In this document: positions 34,923 through 39,875 of the stretch, piece after piece
Layout: the number at the start of each line of letters is the position of its first letter
Numbering within the stretch: position 1 is the stretch's first letter
DNA from: Alphaproteobacteria bacterium
GTDB taxonomy: Bacteria; Pseudomonadota; Alphaproteobacteria; Micavibrionales; Micavibrionaceae
Direction: 5' to 3'
Length of the DNA stretch: 40,942 bases
Assembly: GCA_030426925.1 (NCBI GenBank)
Contig: JAUHXT010000010.1
Span: forward strand, 1-40,942
Notes under the pieces: generated by a model
Told to the model about the DNA's origin: nothing
The model's input: the letters and a program-made list of their open reading frames with translations, nothing else
The model's database searches: none
Position numbers and translations under genes: made by a program

Positions 34923-35855
34923 GTGATTGATAATGAATTTCTTGAACGCTGCGCCCCCGACCTTGCCGAACAGCTATTGCAATGGCATCGCTGGCTGACG
35001 ACCGAAAAAAACTATTCGCGCCATACGGTCCGCGCCTATACCCACGATGTCAACGAATTCATATCCTTCCTTGCTCATCACAATAGTGATGCGGTATCTA
35101 TCAACCATATCTCCGCCGCCGCCATTTCCGACTTCCGCGCGTGGATGTCGAAACAAGCGGTACAGGGTAAGGGCAACGCATCGCGCGCGCGGTCCTTATC
35201 CGGCATCAAAAATTTCCTGACATGGATGGACAAGCAGGGCATCGCCCACAACGCGGCATTACAGGCGGTGCGCAGCCCGAAAATCCCGCGCAAACTCCCC
35301 CGCCCGCTGGAGGAAGTGCAGGCCTTCCGCCTTTTGGAACAACTGCCCACAGACGACTGGGTAGGCCAGCGCGACAAGGCGCTGTTTACCCTGCTATACG
35401 GCTGCGGCCTGCGGATTGATGAAGCCCTGTCCCTGAATATTGCCGACCTGCCGCGTGATGGTTTCCTGCGGGTAAGGGGAAAAGGCAATAAGGAACGCCA
35501 GGTCCCGGTGCTAAAACAGGTCACACAAACGGTAGAAGATTATATTGCCGCCCGCCCCTTTGCCGCCACGCCGGACAGCCCGGTTTTTATCGGTGAACGC
35601 GGCAAGCGTTTGAACCAGGGCATCGCCCAAAAATCCATGCGGGATTTACGCCTGCTTTTAAATCTGCCGGAAACGGCAACCCCGCACGCGTTGCGCCACT
35701 CCTTCGCCACCCATTTGTTGCAGAACGGTGCAAACTTGCGGGAAATTCAGGACCTTCTCGGCCACGCGTCTTTAAGCACTACCCAGCGCTATACGGATAT
35801 CAACGCTGATGAACTGTTGAAGGTTTACAAGGCCGCGCACCCGCGCTCCTCTTAA
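34923..35855 (+). CDS. xerC: tyrosine recombinase XerC
   Basis: The 310-residue protein is a XerC-type recombinase that, with XerD, resolves chromosome dimers at dif. The catalytic set is complete: Arg164 (GLRIDEA), Lys187 (GKGNKER), His255 and Arg258 (HALRHSFATH), His281 (LLGHASL) and Tyr290 (TQRYTDI). The N-terminal SAM-like core (SRHTVRAYTHDVNEFISFL) is typical. It starts with GTG at 34923, with no ribosome binding site, but TAGAAT ends 6 nt before it, so a leaderless message is possible although no good -35 was found. Identification of XerC rather than XerD rests on the DUF484 neighbour. Confidence 0.94.
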   Translation: MIDNEFLERCAPDLAEQLLQWHRWLTTEKNYSRHTVRAYTHDVNEFISFLAHHNSDAVSINHISAAAISDFRAWMSKQAVQGKGNASRARSLSGIKNFLTWMDKQGIAHNAALQAVRSPKIPRKLPRPLEEVQAFRLLEQLPTDDWVGQRDKALFTLLYGCGLRIDEALSLNIADLPRDGFLRVRGKGNKERQVPVLKQVTQTVEDYIAARPFAATPDSPVFIGERGKRLNQGIAQKSMRDLRLLLNLPETATPHALRHSFATHLLQNGANLREIQDLLGHASLSTTQRYTDINADELLKVYKAAHPRSS

Positions 35856-35898
35856 TTCATTGACAGTCACCACAAAACCTCTTAATGATTTCCATATT

Positions 35899-36228
35899 AT
35901 GAAGGTGTGTCTTGTAACATCCGTGTTTAAATTAGTCGGCGATGTCCTAGGCCGCTGGGCCGACAGCAGGCTGCCCGGCGAATATAACGATGCCGCAGAA
36001 TTAAGACCTTCTAGTGGATTCCGCCCCAAATTCCTTGGAGGCTCGCCGCGCATTGAAGAACACCCCTGGCCATTCGAAGACAAGGTAGAACCCGGTCAGA
36101 TAAAACCGATGACACGGGTTACAAGGGGCAGGGACGGAGAACTGTTACCGCCCGGCGTCTCCAATCTGGCCACGAAAAAACGCCTGCGCCGTAACGACCC
36201 CCGCTATACAAAGCGCCGCCCCTTTTAA
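35899..36228 (+). CDS. small hypothetical basic protein
   Basis: From ATG 35899 the product is 109 residues. It starts MKVCLVTSVFKLVGDVLGRW and is followed by a Pro/Arg-rich region (ELRPSSGFRPKFLGGSPRIEEHPWPFEDK) and a basic tail ending KKRLRRNDPRYTKRRPF. No clear domain is seen. An in-frame TTG at 35860, 5 nt after the xerC stop, would add 13 residues; neither start has a ribosome binding site. Family unknown. Confidence 0.5.
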   Translation: MKVCLVTSVFKLVGDVLGRWADSRLPGEYNDAAELRPSSGFRPKFLGGSPRIEEHPWPFEDKVEPGQIKPMTRVTRGRDGELLPPGVSNLATKKRLRRNDPRYTKRRPF

Positions 36229-36279
36229 TCTTTAACATAATAATTGACCAGATTTGGTCTCTCTGATACACCATCCCGC

Positions 36280-37866
36280 ATGAGAAAAGTCGTAAAAGAC
36301 GTCAAGCGCGGTAACTGGCGCTATATTCAAACGGTAAAGGATAAGCCCGAGTACCGGGGTGAATCTCTGTCCAGAGACACCATTACCTTCATGGGGGTAT
36401 TTAATATATCTGATAGCGGCCTGATGAGCCGCCTGATCGACGCTATAAAAAGAGATAATACCCTGGGCCGTGAAGAAAGAAGACTGATTGAACGGGACTT
36501 AAAAACCGTTTTCCCCCCGTCCTTAATCGGCGAAGCTTTAACTTCACTGGACTGCAAGGCTGAATGGTATGTCCACGAAGGCAAAGATCAACCGCACCCG
36601 CATACTGTAACAAAGCCTGTAAGGCCCTATTCCGGCGGATCTGCTTCGCAGGCATTTACAAATAGCCAGCCAAAACAAAAAAAGAAAAAGACCAGAGCAA
36701 AACCCCAAAACCCTGCCGACAAGCCCAAAAGGGTCCGTGCAGCATTTACTGCAAGCACCCACAACTTACCGGAAAGAGATATAGAAATAGGCCCTTGGGC
36801 ATACGACGCACAATCAGATAAGATTAGTTTTACAGATACGAACAACAATGAATCTGAAGTCTTATTAACGCCTGCATGCCGTACATTATTTCTGAAAATC
36901 ATGTCCTCTCACCCACGGCCCGTTCCGATTACGCAGATGTCCGACCACTTATACGGTGCCAGGACAAAAGCAAAAATCAGTTCGACTAGCAGCACTTACG
37001 AGCGCATGATCGAAAGCCTGGAAGAACAATACCCCGGGTCCAGCATGCACTTTGCAAACCGTGACCTGAACGGCTTTCGCATATCCGCTGCAATCGGAAG
37101 ACCCAAACCTGACCTTACAAAAAAAACAACCATTGCTCATGGCCCCTGGGCATATGACAGCGATAAAGAATATTTGTTTTTAAATGAAAGGGTCATCGAC
37201 CCACAGCCAAAGACCAGGGCTGCCCTCATTGCCCTAATCAACGCTTTTCCGGAAGGAATAGAAGCAAAACCATTGGCAGATATTGTATATGGCGAAGACC
37301 AGCAAAAACGCCGGGATGGATCTGACACAAATCAAAATCTTGATCATGTCATAAGAAGTTATAACACCATCACAACAAAGAAGAACAAGGGAACACCTCC
37401 TCCTTTCTGGTACAGCGCCCCTTTGGGAGCCTATATGTTGAATGTGCCATTGGATAACATCGGACCGGTTCAGGCTGCCGCTATGAAATTGATAGAAATA
37501 GATGACATCACTGTCTCACTGGCACAGGCAAGAATTTGGCACAAAGGAAATCCTTTACAAAAGCTGGGAAAGAAAACATGGCTGGCGTTTTCAAAACTGC
37601 TTGAAAAGCAAGGACAGTTTGTAACATCGCGGGAACTGGGCGCTGCCATTTATGGTGAAGTAAGTGATAAAAACACCACAAACGCCAAACAGGTTATGAG
37701 TGAATTGAGAAAAGGGTTAAACAGCCTGGAACCGGATCTGGGCAAGCGGCTTCTGCGTGCGGACGGCCAGCTTGGCTATATTCTGTGCCCTGACGACTTT
37801 AATTACGATGCGGCCTTCAGACGCGCCAAACTGGCCCGAAAAGCAAACAAAGAGCCCCATCCGTAA
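36280..37866 (+). CDS. protein with three tandem winged-helix (OmpR/PhoB-like) modules
   Basis: The product is 528 residues from ATG 36280; TTG at 36244 in the same frame would add 12, and neither has a clear ribosome binding site. After an N-terminal region and a basic linker (KQKKKKTRAK), three repeated modules follow at about residues 169-271, 286-390 and 411-504. Each has a beta strand with GPWAYD or RIWHKG, a helix at a position like TPACRTLFLKIM, TRAALIALINAF and TWLAFSKLLEK, a turn and helix with SDHLYG, ADIVYG or LGAAIYG, a recognition-type helix, and a wing ending FRIS, YMLN or GYIL. This is the pattern of OmpR/PhoB DNA-binding domains. There is no receiver or membrane part. It probably binds DNA at repeated sites. 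Confidence 0.72.
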   Translation: MRKVVKDVKRGNWRYIQTVKDKPEYRGESLSRDTITFMGVFNISDSGLMSRLIDAIKRDNTLGREERRLIERDLKTVFPPSLIGEALTSLDCKAEWYVHEGKDQPHPHTVTKPVRPYSGGSASQAFTNSQPKQKKKKTRAKPQNPADKPKRVRAAFTASTHNLPERDIEIGPWAYDAQSDKISFTDTNNNESEVLLTPACRTLFLKIMSSHPRPVPITQMSDHLYGARTKAKISSTSSTYERMIESLEEQYPGSSMHFANRDLNGFRISAAIGRPKPDLTKKTTIAHGPWAYDSDKEYLFLNERVIDPQPKTRAALIALINAFPEGIEAKPLADIVYGEDQQKRRDGSDTNQNLDHVIRSYNTITTKKNKGTPPPFWYSAPLGAYMLNVPLDNIGPVQAAAMKLIEIDDITVSLAQARIWHKGNPLQKLGKKTWLAFSKLLEKQGQFVTSRELGAAIYGEVSDKNTTNAKQVMSELRKGLNSLEPDLGKRLLRADGQLGYILCPDDFNYDAAFRRAKLARKANKEPHP

Positions 37867-37904
37867 GTCCGCCCCCCTGCCTCCACCTGTTTCATAAAGA
37901 TTTC

Positions 37905-37932
37905 TTGACGAATTTCTTATTTTTCATATATA
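37905..37932 (+). promoter_or_regulatory. promoter placing transcription start at the ATG at 37939
   Basis: TTGACG (37905-37910, 5 of 6) and TATATA (37927-37932, 4 of 6) are 16 nt apart, and 6 nt separate the -10 from the ATG at 37939. No ribosome binding site is seen. The spacing matches two other genes in this window, at 3790 and 12748. Confidence 0.5.
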
Positions 37933-37938
37933 TAAAAC

Positions 37939-38470
37939 ATGGGCAATATTATCGATTTAAACCAGCACAGGCCGAAAACACACGATGCGACATCATCGGT
38001 CGGAGCAGGGCTACAAAAACTTCTATCAGAGGTTTTTGACCTGATAAGCCCAAAGCCCACCAGATTTGATCAAATGGTCGAACGCGAGTTCCGCAGAGCG
38101 CAGCAAAACCCCAGAAACGCTTTATTTGTTGTCGCACGTGCTTCTTCGCCGGATTTCCAGGGACGCCATCATCAATGTTTTGCGGTAAAAATTTCTGCGC
38201 CGGGATGAAGTCCTGCAGGAAATTGCCGATACATGCGGGCCGATTATTGCAGCGCTTCCCTTGCGCGATGAAAAAGGACACAACAAAGAATTCTATGCAC
38301 GTGATATGTGGGGCCCGATGGGAAAAATTGGAAGATCCATGCCTATGCTGGATGCCCCGAAAATCCATTCCAGTGTTAAATTCGTGCCGCTACCGCCACT
38401 CCCCGGCAGGGACAGGATACGTTCGAACACTCCGCCACCGCCAAGACCCGGCGGCGGATGGGCGGCATAA
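37939..38470 (+). pseudogene. hypothetical gene with a frameshift in an A run
   Basis: The first frame runs from ATG 37939 and stops at 38208 after 89 residues (MGNIIDLNQHRPKTHDATSS...). A second frame, one base ahead, is open from about 38187 to 38470 and continues with KFLRRDEVLQEIADTCG and IIAALPLRDEKGHNKEFYARD, ending in a Pro-rich tail. Removing one base from the A5 run at 38187-38191 joins them into one protein of 176 residues. The gene could be broken, the base could be a sequencing error, or a ribosome could slip there. The intermediate region also has a plausible second-frame translation, so the exact point is not certain. No known family. Confidence 0.55.
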
Positions 38471-38486
38471 AACCAATCGAAATGAA

Positions 38487-39875
38487 TTAAATATGTATCG
38501 GGCGGCCATGTACGGCCAGCGCCGCTTCCTTGATCACTTCTTCCAGTGTCGGGTGCGCATGACATGTGCGGGCAATGTCTTCGGCTGATCCGCCAAATTC
38601 CATGACGGCCGCAACTTCGGCAATCAACGTACCCGCTTCTGGCCCGATAATATGACAGCCCAGAACGCGATCGGTTTTGGCATCCGCAAGAATTTTCACA
38701 AACCCTTCCGTATCACCCATCGCGCGCGCGCGGCCATTGGCCATGAACGGAAATTTTCCAGCCTTGTACGCAACACCTTCTTCTTTCAGCTGCGCTTCGG
38801 TCTTGCCGATATTCGCGACTTCCGGCCATGTGTAAACCACGCCGGGGATCAGGTTGTAATCAATGTGACCGGATTGCCCGGCCAGCATTTCCGCAAGCAC
38901 CACGCCTTCTTCTTCCGCTTTGTGTGCCAGCATCGGTCCGGCGATCACGTCGCCAATCGCATACACGCCGTCAACATTGGTTTTGAAATGCGCATCGGTT
39001 TTAATACGGCCGCGATCGTCGGTTTCAACGCCCGCTTTGTCGAGGCCCAGCGCATCCGTATACGGCTTGCGCCCGACAGCAACCAGCAGGATATCAACGG
39101 ACAGCTTTTCTTCGGCGCCGCCTTTGGCTGGCTCCATCGTAATGTCCACGCCCTTTGCGCTTGATTTCGCACTGGTGACTTTCGTGCTGACTTTAAAGTC
39201 CATGCCCTGCTTGCTGAAAATCTTGCGGCTCTCTTTGCGCACTTCATCATCCATGCCCGGCAGGATTTCATCCATAAATTCAATAACGCTGACCTTCGCA
39301 CCAAGACGCGACCACACGGACGCCATCTCAAGGCCGATCACACCGCCGCCGATGACCGCCATACTGCCGGGAACTTTGTCCAGCTCCAGCGCACCTGTGG
39401 AGGATACAATTTTCTTTTCGTCAATTTCGATACCCGGAAGGGAAATTACATCGGAACCCGTGGCAATAATGATGTTCTTGGCATCGTATGCTTTGCCGTC
39501 TACATCGACTTTGCCGCCGCCCAGCAATTTGCCGGCGCCTTTCAGCCAGTCGACCTTGTTCTTCTTGAACAGGAACTCAATCCCCTTGGTGTTATCACCG
39601 ACAACACCGTCCTTGAATTTCATCATGGCCTTCAGGTCAAGCTTCACACCCGTCATCTTGATGCCCATCGTTTCCATCTTGCCATGCGCTTCATGATATT
39701 TTTCAGAAGCGGACAACAAGGCCTTGGAAGGAATACAGCCGATATTCAGGCACGTACCGCCCAGCGTCTCACGCTTTTCAACACAGGCCACCTTCATGCC
39801 CAGCTGGGCCGCACGAATCGCGCAAACATAGCCGCCAGGGCCGGAACCGATAACAATCACATCGTAGGATGACAT
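38487..39875 (-). CDS. lpdA: dihydrolipoamide dehydrogenase
   Basis: E3 of the pyruvate and 2-oxoglutarate dehydrogenase complexes and of the glycine cleavage system; it reoxidises dihydrolipoamide with FAD and NAD. The 462-residue protein has the FAD motif GSGPGGY (residues 10-16), the redox Cys pair C42 and C47 (GGTCLNIGCIPSK), a second Rossmann motif GGGVIGLEMA, and the C-terminal His441-Glu446 pair (HAHPTLEE) supplied to the partner subunit. AAGGAG precedes the ATG. It stands alone, convergent with the frameshifted gene, so the specific complex it serves cannot be told. Confidence 0.98.
   Translation of the reverse strand: MSSYDVIVIGSGPGGYVCAIRAAQLGMKVACVEKRETLGGTCLNIGCIPSKALLSASEKYHEAHGKMETMGIKMTGVKLDLKAMMKFKDGVVGDNTKGIEFLFKKNKVDWLKGAGKLLGGGKVDVDGKAYDAKNIIIATGSDVISLPGIEIDEKKIVSSTGALELDKVPGSMAVIGGGVIGLEMASVWSRLGAKVSVIEFMDEILPGMDDEVRKESRKIFSKQGMDFKVSTKVTSAKSSAKGVDITMEPAKGGAEEKLSVDILLVAVGRKPYTDALGLDKAGVETDDRGRIKTDAHFKTNVDGVYAIGDVIAGPMLAHKAEEEGVVLAEMLAGQSGHIDYNLIPGVVYTWPEVANIGKTEAQLKEEGVAYKAGKFPFMANGRARAMGDTEGFVKILADAKTDRVLGCHIIGPEAGTLIAEVAAVMEFGGSAEDIARTCHAHPTLEEVIKEAALAVHGRPIHI

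Follow-up and report, generated by a model that had tools for sequence, protein, structure and literature searches.

P0001, a putative soluble regulator with three chained OmpR/PhoB-type winged-helix modules from a Micavibrio-like alphaproteobacterium

Regulators of the OmpR family are among the commonest response regulators of bacteria and normally pair on DNA via their phosphorylated receivers. Members such as PhoB and OmpR bind direct repeats head-to-tail once the receiver is phosphorylated, and their winged helix-turn-helix (wHTH) domain usually occurs once per protein, beside this phosphate-operated switch. The locus described here raises the question of what a protein may do that carries several such domains in one chain and no recognizable switch. 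It lies in a window of 40,942 nucleotides (the whole stretch of DNA that was analysed) from a member of the Micavibrionaceae, a relative of the predator Micavibrio, and it is a single locus in the host genome (a 2.14-Mb assembly of 111 contigs). A preliminary description of its product, hereafter P0001, had proposed three degenerate OmpR/PhoB-like modules with neither a receiver nor a membrane part. The features of the locus are the following.

36280-37866, forward strand: coding sequence of P0001, 528 aa, a three-wHTH protein (read as an ORF)
36244, forward strand: alternative TTG start of P0001, adding 12 residues
36280-36579, forward strand: N-terminal part, residues 1-100, not wHTH, used as negative control in the shuffle and hhalign tests
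36580-36765, forward strand: basic K/P-rich linker, residues 101-162, net charge +12, pI 11.2
36766-37107, forward strand: module 1, predicted OmpR-type wHTH, residues 163-276, with an acidic recognition-helix segment (HMM, shuffles, hhalign; weak fold evidence)
37114-37452, forward strand: module 2, predicted OmpR-type wHTH, residues 279-391, apparent duplicate of module 1, the weakest when taken alone (HMM, shuffles, hhalign)
37474-37803, forward strand: module 3, predicted OmpR-type wHTH, residues 399-508, the most canonical (Pfam, HMM, shuffles, hhalign)
37804-37866, forward strand: basic C-terminal tail, residues 509-528, net charge +4, and stop codon
35856-38486, no strand assigned: the variable xerC-lpd slot, which houses the P0001 gene

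The frame of P0001 runs uninterrupted through 528 codons, and the longest stop-free run in the 2631-bp slot reaches 540 codons, whereas none of 500 base shuffles exceeded 220. An intact frame so much longer than in shuffled DNA argues against the view that P0001 is a decaying, functionless duplicate of a response regulator, as does module 3, which retains its helix and wing residues. The degeneracy of the modules, the frameshift in the neighbouring gene (37939-38208) and the lack of orthologues among the genomes searched all fit decay, which we nevertheless regard as very improbable.

Searches of Pfam, NCBIfam, PHROGs and PDB sequences with residues 1-124 returned nothing. The net charges of modules 1, 2 and 3 are -1, +1 and +3, and about 10-12 residues (counted) lie between the wing end of one module and the first strand of the following one. 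The absence of receiver and membrane part stood up to examination, with no match to a receiver (Response_reg) at E≤1 in Pfam and a best 19-residue Kyte-Doolittle mean of only 1.02, and so did the basic linker that had been noted ahead of the first module. P0001 is thus classed, on its domain matches, as a wHTH-containing protein and not as a response regulator, the receiver being absent by Pfam. The idea of a known defence protein was rejected, since none of the PADLOC families matched at E≤1.

The evidence that the modules are winged helices comes mainly from profile comparisons. On P0001, Pfam reports Trans_reg_C at module 3 alone (E 2.9e-4, 21.3 bits, under the cut-off of 26.2), and modules 1 and 2, scanned singly, have no Trans_reg_C match. 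A wHTH HMM was seeded with the host's seven above-cut-off Trans_reg_C domains and extended by one search round over the ORFs of the fetched loci, which gave a profile of 49 rows, mostly CtrA-like, with P0001 excluded and about ten rows stemming from the multi-wHTH proteins of relatives; a cleaned profile of 39 rows was obtained by dropping ten rows from multi-wHTH proteins. The HMM matches P0001 in register at residues 167-250, 282-342 and 404-484, with a whole-protein E of 8e-9 (Z set to 1000). Module 3 scores highest, followed by module 1 and then module 2, the single-module i-E values being 7.1e-5, 0.53 and 14, of which the latter two are individually not significant. The real HMM score was reached by none of 3000 shuffles for each of the three modules, compared with 480 for the N-terminal part and 1583 for the linker (shuffles without a reported match, 429 to 882 per module, were scored as lower). 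Repeated with the 39-row profile and 2000 shuffles each, the test gave 0 for module 1, 1 for module 2, 0 for module 3 and 469 for the N-terminal part.

Comparison of profiles with hhalign against the 49 wHTH rows gave probabilities of 94.3% for modules 1 and 2 together (columns 2-96), 80.9% for module 1, 92.2% for module 3 and 21.3% for module 2, and in each of these cases none of 200 column shuffles reached the real score, whereas the N-terminal part of P0001, as negative control, gave 0.2% with 122 of 200 shuffles at or above the real score. Searched against the PDB, the three-module profile A3 found KdpE at E 4.1e-4, and all 13 chains at E≤10 are OmpR-family proteins or AfsR; these matches owe at least part of their strength to module 3. 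Whole P0001 against PDB sequences likewise yielded six matches, all of them of module 3 to OmpR-type regulators (E 0.097 to 0.65), and no OmpR protein was found in that set by module 1, by module 2 or by the profile of both together. Over 385 genomes of the class, the profile of modules 1 and 2 matched four non-self genomes at E≤0.05. Two of the matched proteins are OmpR-family response regulators, aligned at their wHTH (0.009 and 0.017); the others, named by eye from their sequence, are RNase D-like (0.0019) and cupin-like (0.038). The best of these matches, to the RNase D-like protein, is a chance one. HMM, shuffle and hhalign tests agree with the three degenerate OmpR/PhoB-like modules first described, weakly so for module 2, and on this basis three predicted wHTH modules are supported, module 2 being the least supported of them.

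Structure prediction adds comparatively little. Predicted whole and without an alignment, P0001 reached a pLDDT of 36.6, a confidence too low to read, and no wHTH was found in the best 10 rows of the PDB search. Module 1, predicted with modules 2 and 3 as alignment, reached a pLDDT of 46.5, with four strands followed by three helices and no C-terminal hairpin. With Foldseek, the best 8 of 258 rows for this low-confidence model are OmpR/CadC/ToxR-type wHTH domains at E≥0.11 and a TM of about 0.3, the top row being the DNA-binding domain of CadC (E 0.11, not significant). With VIA-align, the best 7 of 123 rows at Z≥2 are also OmpR/CadC/ToxR-type wHTH domains (best Z 4.6); six of these seven cover 43-46 residues and lie within model residues 3-51 at most, and since the rows end at residue 51, the recognition helix is barely tested by them. 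A match of at least two modules to the winged-helix fold is supported by the sequence profiles, but the Foldseek result for the module 1 model (E 0.11) falls short of significance.

The three modules do not share one history. Modules 1 and 2, which have GPWAYD in common, are clearly similar to each other (Smith-Waterman score 75, z 9.5, 0 of 500 shuffles; 0 of 2000 in a second test), whereas module 3 is near chance against both module 1 (z 0.7, 122 of 500 shuffles) and module 2 (z 2.1, 19 of 500). Its resemblance is instead to two proteins from other bacteria of the order, with z 10.2 against the C-terminal wHTH of G116 and z 10.6 against the first wHTH of G003. Because modules 1 and 2 pair with each other and module 3 is nearer to the wHTH domains of other proteins, the array looks like a duplicated pair plus a third wHTH and not like a triplication. 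To judge by these scores, modules 1 and 2 arose by internal duplication and module 3 has a different source, so that of the three copies in the preliminary description the shared wHTH type stands, while a single triplication does not.

The reading that we favour, and to which we would give about an even chance, is that P0001 is a lineage-specific soluble regulator, predicted to bind DNA and to act independently of phosphorylation, in which three OmpR/PhoB-type modules are covalently chained. The covalent linkage would replace receiver-driven dimerization. As the modules are joined by about ten residues, the head-to-tail arrangement, which ordinary OmpR-family regulators reach after receiver phosphorylation, would be built into P0001, so that the protein could act without a kinase and would be controlled by its amount. 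Module 3, whose canonical recognition helix and wing are kept, would be the main sequence-specific reader of DNA, modules 1 and 2 would supply extra DNA contacts or a surface for protein interaction, and the basic linker and tail would supply unspecific DNA affinity. P0001 would then occupy a composite site made up of two or three half-sites, or vie for such sites with an ordinary OmpR-family regulator, CtrA for instance.

The recognition-helix segments bear directly on how many of the modules may touch DNA. In the module alignment, this segment reads ELRKGL in module 3, whose wing reads GQLGYIL. The segment of module 1, ERMIESLEEQY, is acidic and lacks the usual LRxK pattern, and the wing of this module reads NGFRIS; module 2 has HVIRSYNT, also without the LRxK pattern, and LGAYML at the wing (helix and wing were assigned by eye, from general knowledge of the OmpR fold and a weak alignment). 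Given an acidic segment without LRxK, the recognition helix of module 1 may be unfit for DNA binding, and the module may not bind DNA at all. The copies may differ in their targets, as first suggested, or module 1 may have none. These residues lead to a possible, though doubtful, alternative, in which module 3 alone would read DNA and modules 1 and 2 would be protein-interaction modules, making P0001 a DNA-tethered adaptor or anti-regulator, with module 3 and the basic linker as tether and an OmpR-family protein, RNA polymerase or a sigma factor as candidate partner. The LRxK pattern kept in module 3 alone (alignment by eye) and the descending HMM scores from module 3 to module 1 to module 2 fit such an adaptor, and so does G116, in which a module-3-like wHTH is joined to an RpoH-like sigma factor in one chain, making a contact with the transcription machinery thinkable. 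However, a wing-like end, again read by eye, is kept in all three modules of P0001, no partner is indicated, and the helix residues of such degenerate domains are possibly misaligned.

The preliminary description proposed that P0001 could bind a repeated operator array or loop DNA. DNA repeats near the gene had been suggested as something to look for, and no operator-like array was found in 35840-38520. A perfect palindrome, GACCA-GATT-TGGTC, lies at 36246-36259, 20 bp upstream of the ATG, and is present in a single copy in the genome. The general form GACCA-N4-TGGTC occurs once, compared with about two occurrences expected by base count, and the reversed control also occurs once. The palindrome is thus possibly an operator or a hairpin, or else a product of chance; as an operator it was set aside, the count being at chance level. 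Nor is it of the direct-repeat type expected for OmpR proteins. A scan for promoters and terminators was near chance (3 observed versus 3.1 expected, and 5 observed versus 3.6 expected).

The exact layout of P0001 is so far a singleton. Homologues with the same triple layout were sought, and the collections searched yielded no full-length relative: at E≤1e-3 a search of 193 relatives returned P0001 itself only, and none was confirmed in the genome contigs, viral contigs or phages searched. Viral scans with profile A3 and with the C-terminus of G116 likewise confirmed nothing, and the plasmids gave one weak match to module 3 (E 0.5). Among 142 genomes of the order, 15 partial matches at E≤1 were found in 14 genomes besides its own. 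Two of these (L061 and L063) led to multi-wHTH proteins; L062, L067 and L070 hold one wHTH each in the HMM scan, and L066, L073 and L074 were discarded as relatives since they looked like chance in the ORF lists. That no family with this layout has been described is consistent with the titles and opening lines of abstracts in the open-access literature, where no chained OmpR-type wHTH architecture was found. Nothing was found there on Micavibrio together with CtrA. The host genome also encodes, on contig C32 (L078 5453-5866, reverse strand), a 138-aa protein with a single wHTH, with no receiver match and with Trans_reg_C under the cut-off.

The gene had also been noted to lie next to xerC and beside a frameshifted gene, and both are indeed its neighbours. 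The small gene at 37939-38470 (forward strand) changes frame near 38190, which may reflect a sequencing error, decay or a real frameshift, and neither its first part (37939-38208) nor the other neighbour (35860-36228) has a confident Pfam match. As for xerC, it is convergent with lpd in 15 of 20 pieces of related genomes (75 to 5046 bp apart) and in 26 of 35 named loci (3 to 3422 bp apart); the two sets overlap in some genomes, and elsewhere xerC or lpd was not found within the piece. Since this order is kept in most related loci where both genes are seen, the nearness of xerC is uninformative, and xerC as the integrase of a mobile element was rejected because it belongs to the conserved gene order. 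What lies between the two genes varies from genome to genome, with different ORFs in different slots and a gap of only 3-24 bp in 8 of the 26 named loci. In the slot of L039, for instance, one ORF reads by eye as PEP-utilizing-enzyme-like and another as adenosine-deaminase-like. A tblastn search with P0001 of the related xerC-lpd loci (L032-L051 and L141-L174) gave no match, and the 50 proteins obtained in the wHTH HMM scan (E≤10, default filters) include no ORF from L032-L051 or L141-L175.

Such a variable slot invites the view that P0001 is the regulator of a mobile element (a plasmid, satellite or phage remnant) that landed there and is now cargo or a relic, its targets lying inside the element or its action subverting host regulators. 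The lack of a full-length relative in the genomes searched goes in the same direction, as do two other multi-wHTH genes of the order that lie beside an integrase-like gene or a D5/DUF5906 protein. The GC3 of P0001 is 0.474, lower than that of 22 long ORFs of the window, which average 0.578 (sd 0.073), but the difference is within 1.5 sd and is no strong sign of transfer. Moreover, the XerC-like gene, part of the conserved order, is the only integrase nearby, no tRNA is present in the window, and phages, viral contigs and plasmids (the single match at E 0.5 included) gave no significant match. We consider an origin of this kind distinctly unlikely.

P0001 is not the only protein of its order with more than one OmpR-type wHTH per chain. 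Following weak matches led to at least four others (G003, G023, G071 and G116), so that at least 5 of 142 order genomes, P0001 included, encode multi-wHTH proteins, a lower bound obtained from followed matches and not a census. These proteins cannot be aligned with each other over their full length, and their similarity to P0001 is confined to the wHTH parts. G003 (865 aa, L076 4349-6946, reverse strand) has three Trans_reg_C stretches and no Response_reg match, and lies near fliP with one ORF between; among its segments, d1, d3 and d4 were reached by none of 2000 shuffles and d6 by one, while d2 (51) and d5 (96) are unsupported. G023 (361 aa, L221 4457-5542, reverse strand) lies between ctrA and fliI and has one Trans_reg_C stretch, no Pfam receiver match and two wHTH segments (0 of 2000 shuffles each). 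Both differ from P0001 in an N-terminal part of their own without Pfam assignment. Unlike P0001, G071 (455 aa, L140 2345-3712, forward strand) has a receiver, being CtrA-like in its receiver and wHTH but extended by a further wHTH at the C-terminus (two Trans_reg_C stretches); its gene adjoins a D5/DUF5906 protein and a 702-aa ORF (L140 3666-5774, forward strand) with a weak Sigma70_r4 match. In this ORF, segments resembling sigma region 4 appear by eye to be repeated, one of them with the weak Pfam match. G116 (966 aa, L077 2961-5861, forward strand), also unlike P0001, has a sigma-factor part, with RpoH-like sigma-70 regions 2 and 4 followed by a long C-terminal part ending in a wHTH. This C-terminal Trans_reg_C (E 0.03 in Pfam) and a second segment were each reached by 0 of 2000 shuffles, and two middle segments are unsupported (143 and 1514 of 2000); its gene adjoins the integrase-like gene. 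Two of the four thus lie near flagellar genes or ctrA (G003 and G023) and two beside mobile-element genes (G071 and G116). The former pair, with no Pfam receiver match, speaks in favour of our preferred reading of P0001. In 135 order genomes, the non-self matches listed for G003 and G116 are confined to the sigma part or the region of the first wHTH; nothing but self was found for G023 at E≤1e-13, nor for the C-terminal half of G071 when searched at E≤1e-3.

Bacteria of this order thus seem to invent wHTH chains repeatedly. A wider conjecture, which we put forward as speculative and rather unlikely, is that Micavibrio-like bacteria repeatedly build covalent arrays of wHTH domains, often with lost or decayed receivers, which would be kinase-independent, pre-assembled oligomers on long composite sites, overriding or competing with CtrA-type regulators, perhaps in the motile attack phase, P0001 being one of several such independent inventions. 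The attack phase of Micavibrio aeruginosavorus sees an upregulation of flagellar, chemotaxis and two-component genes, and also of sigma 32, one of few characterized genes to behave in this way (PMC3189940). Such data are background to the idea that multi-wHTH proteins could act in that phase, and not evidence for it. Should P0001 chain its modules in place of receivers, it would illustrate how a regulator can become free of its kinase, and would bear on whether longer site readers can arise from chained wHTH modules, for which the multi-wHTH proteins of the order form a testable set.

Compared with known systems, P0001 shares features with several types of regulators. Regulators of the AfsR/SARP type have a receiver-less OmpR-type DNA-binding domain, and AfsR is among the PDB matches of profile A3 (E 0.52), but the only Pfam match of P0001 at E≤1 is Trans_reg_C, and neither BTAD nor ATPase/TPR was seen. 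One-component regulators of the CadC/ToxR type also have an OmpR-type wHTH without a receiver, as does P0001; in the latter, however, there are three modules, the wHTH is not N-terminal, and no membrane segment is seen by Kyte-Doolittle analysis. Finally, the response regulators of the OmpR/PhoB family (CtrA, KdpE, PmrA and PhoB) have a DNA-binding domain of the same type as the predicted modules of P0001, which differs from them in its number of modules (three, not one), its long basic linker and its lack of a detectable receiver.
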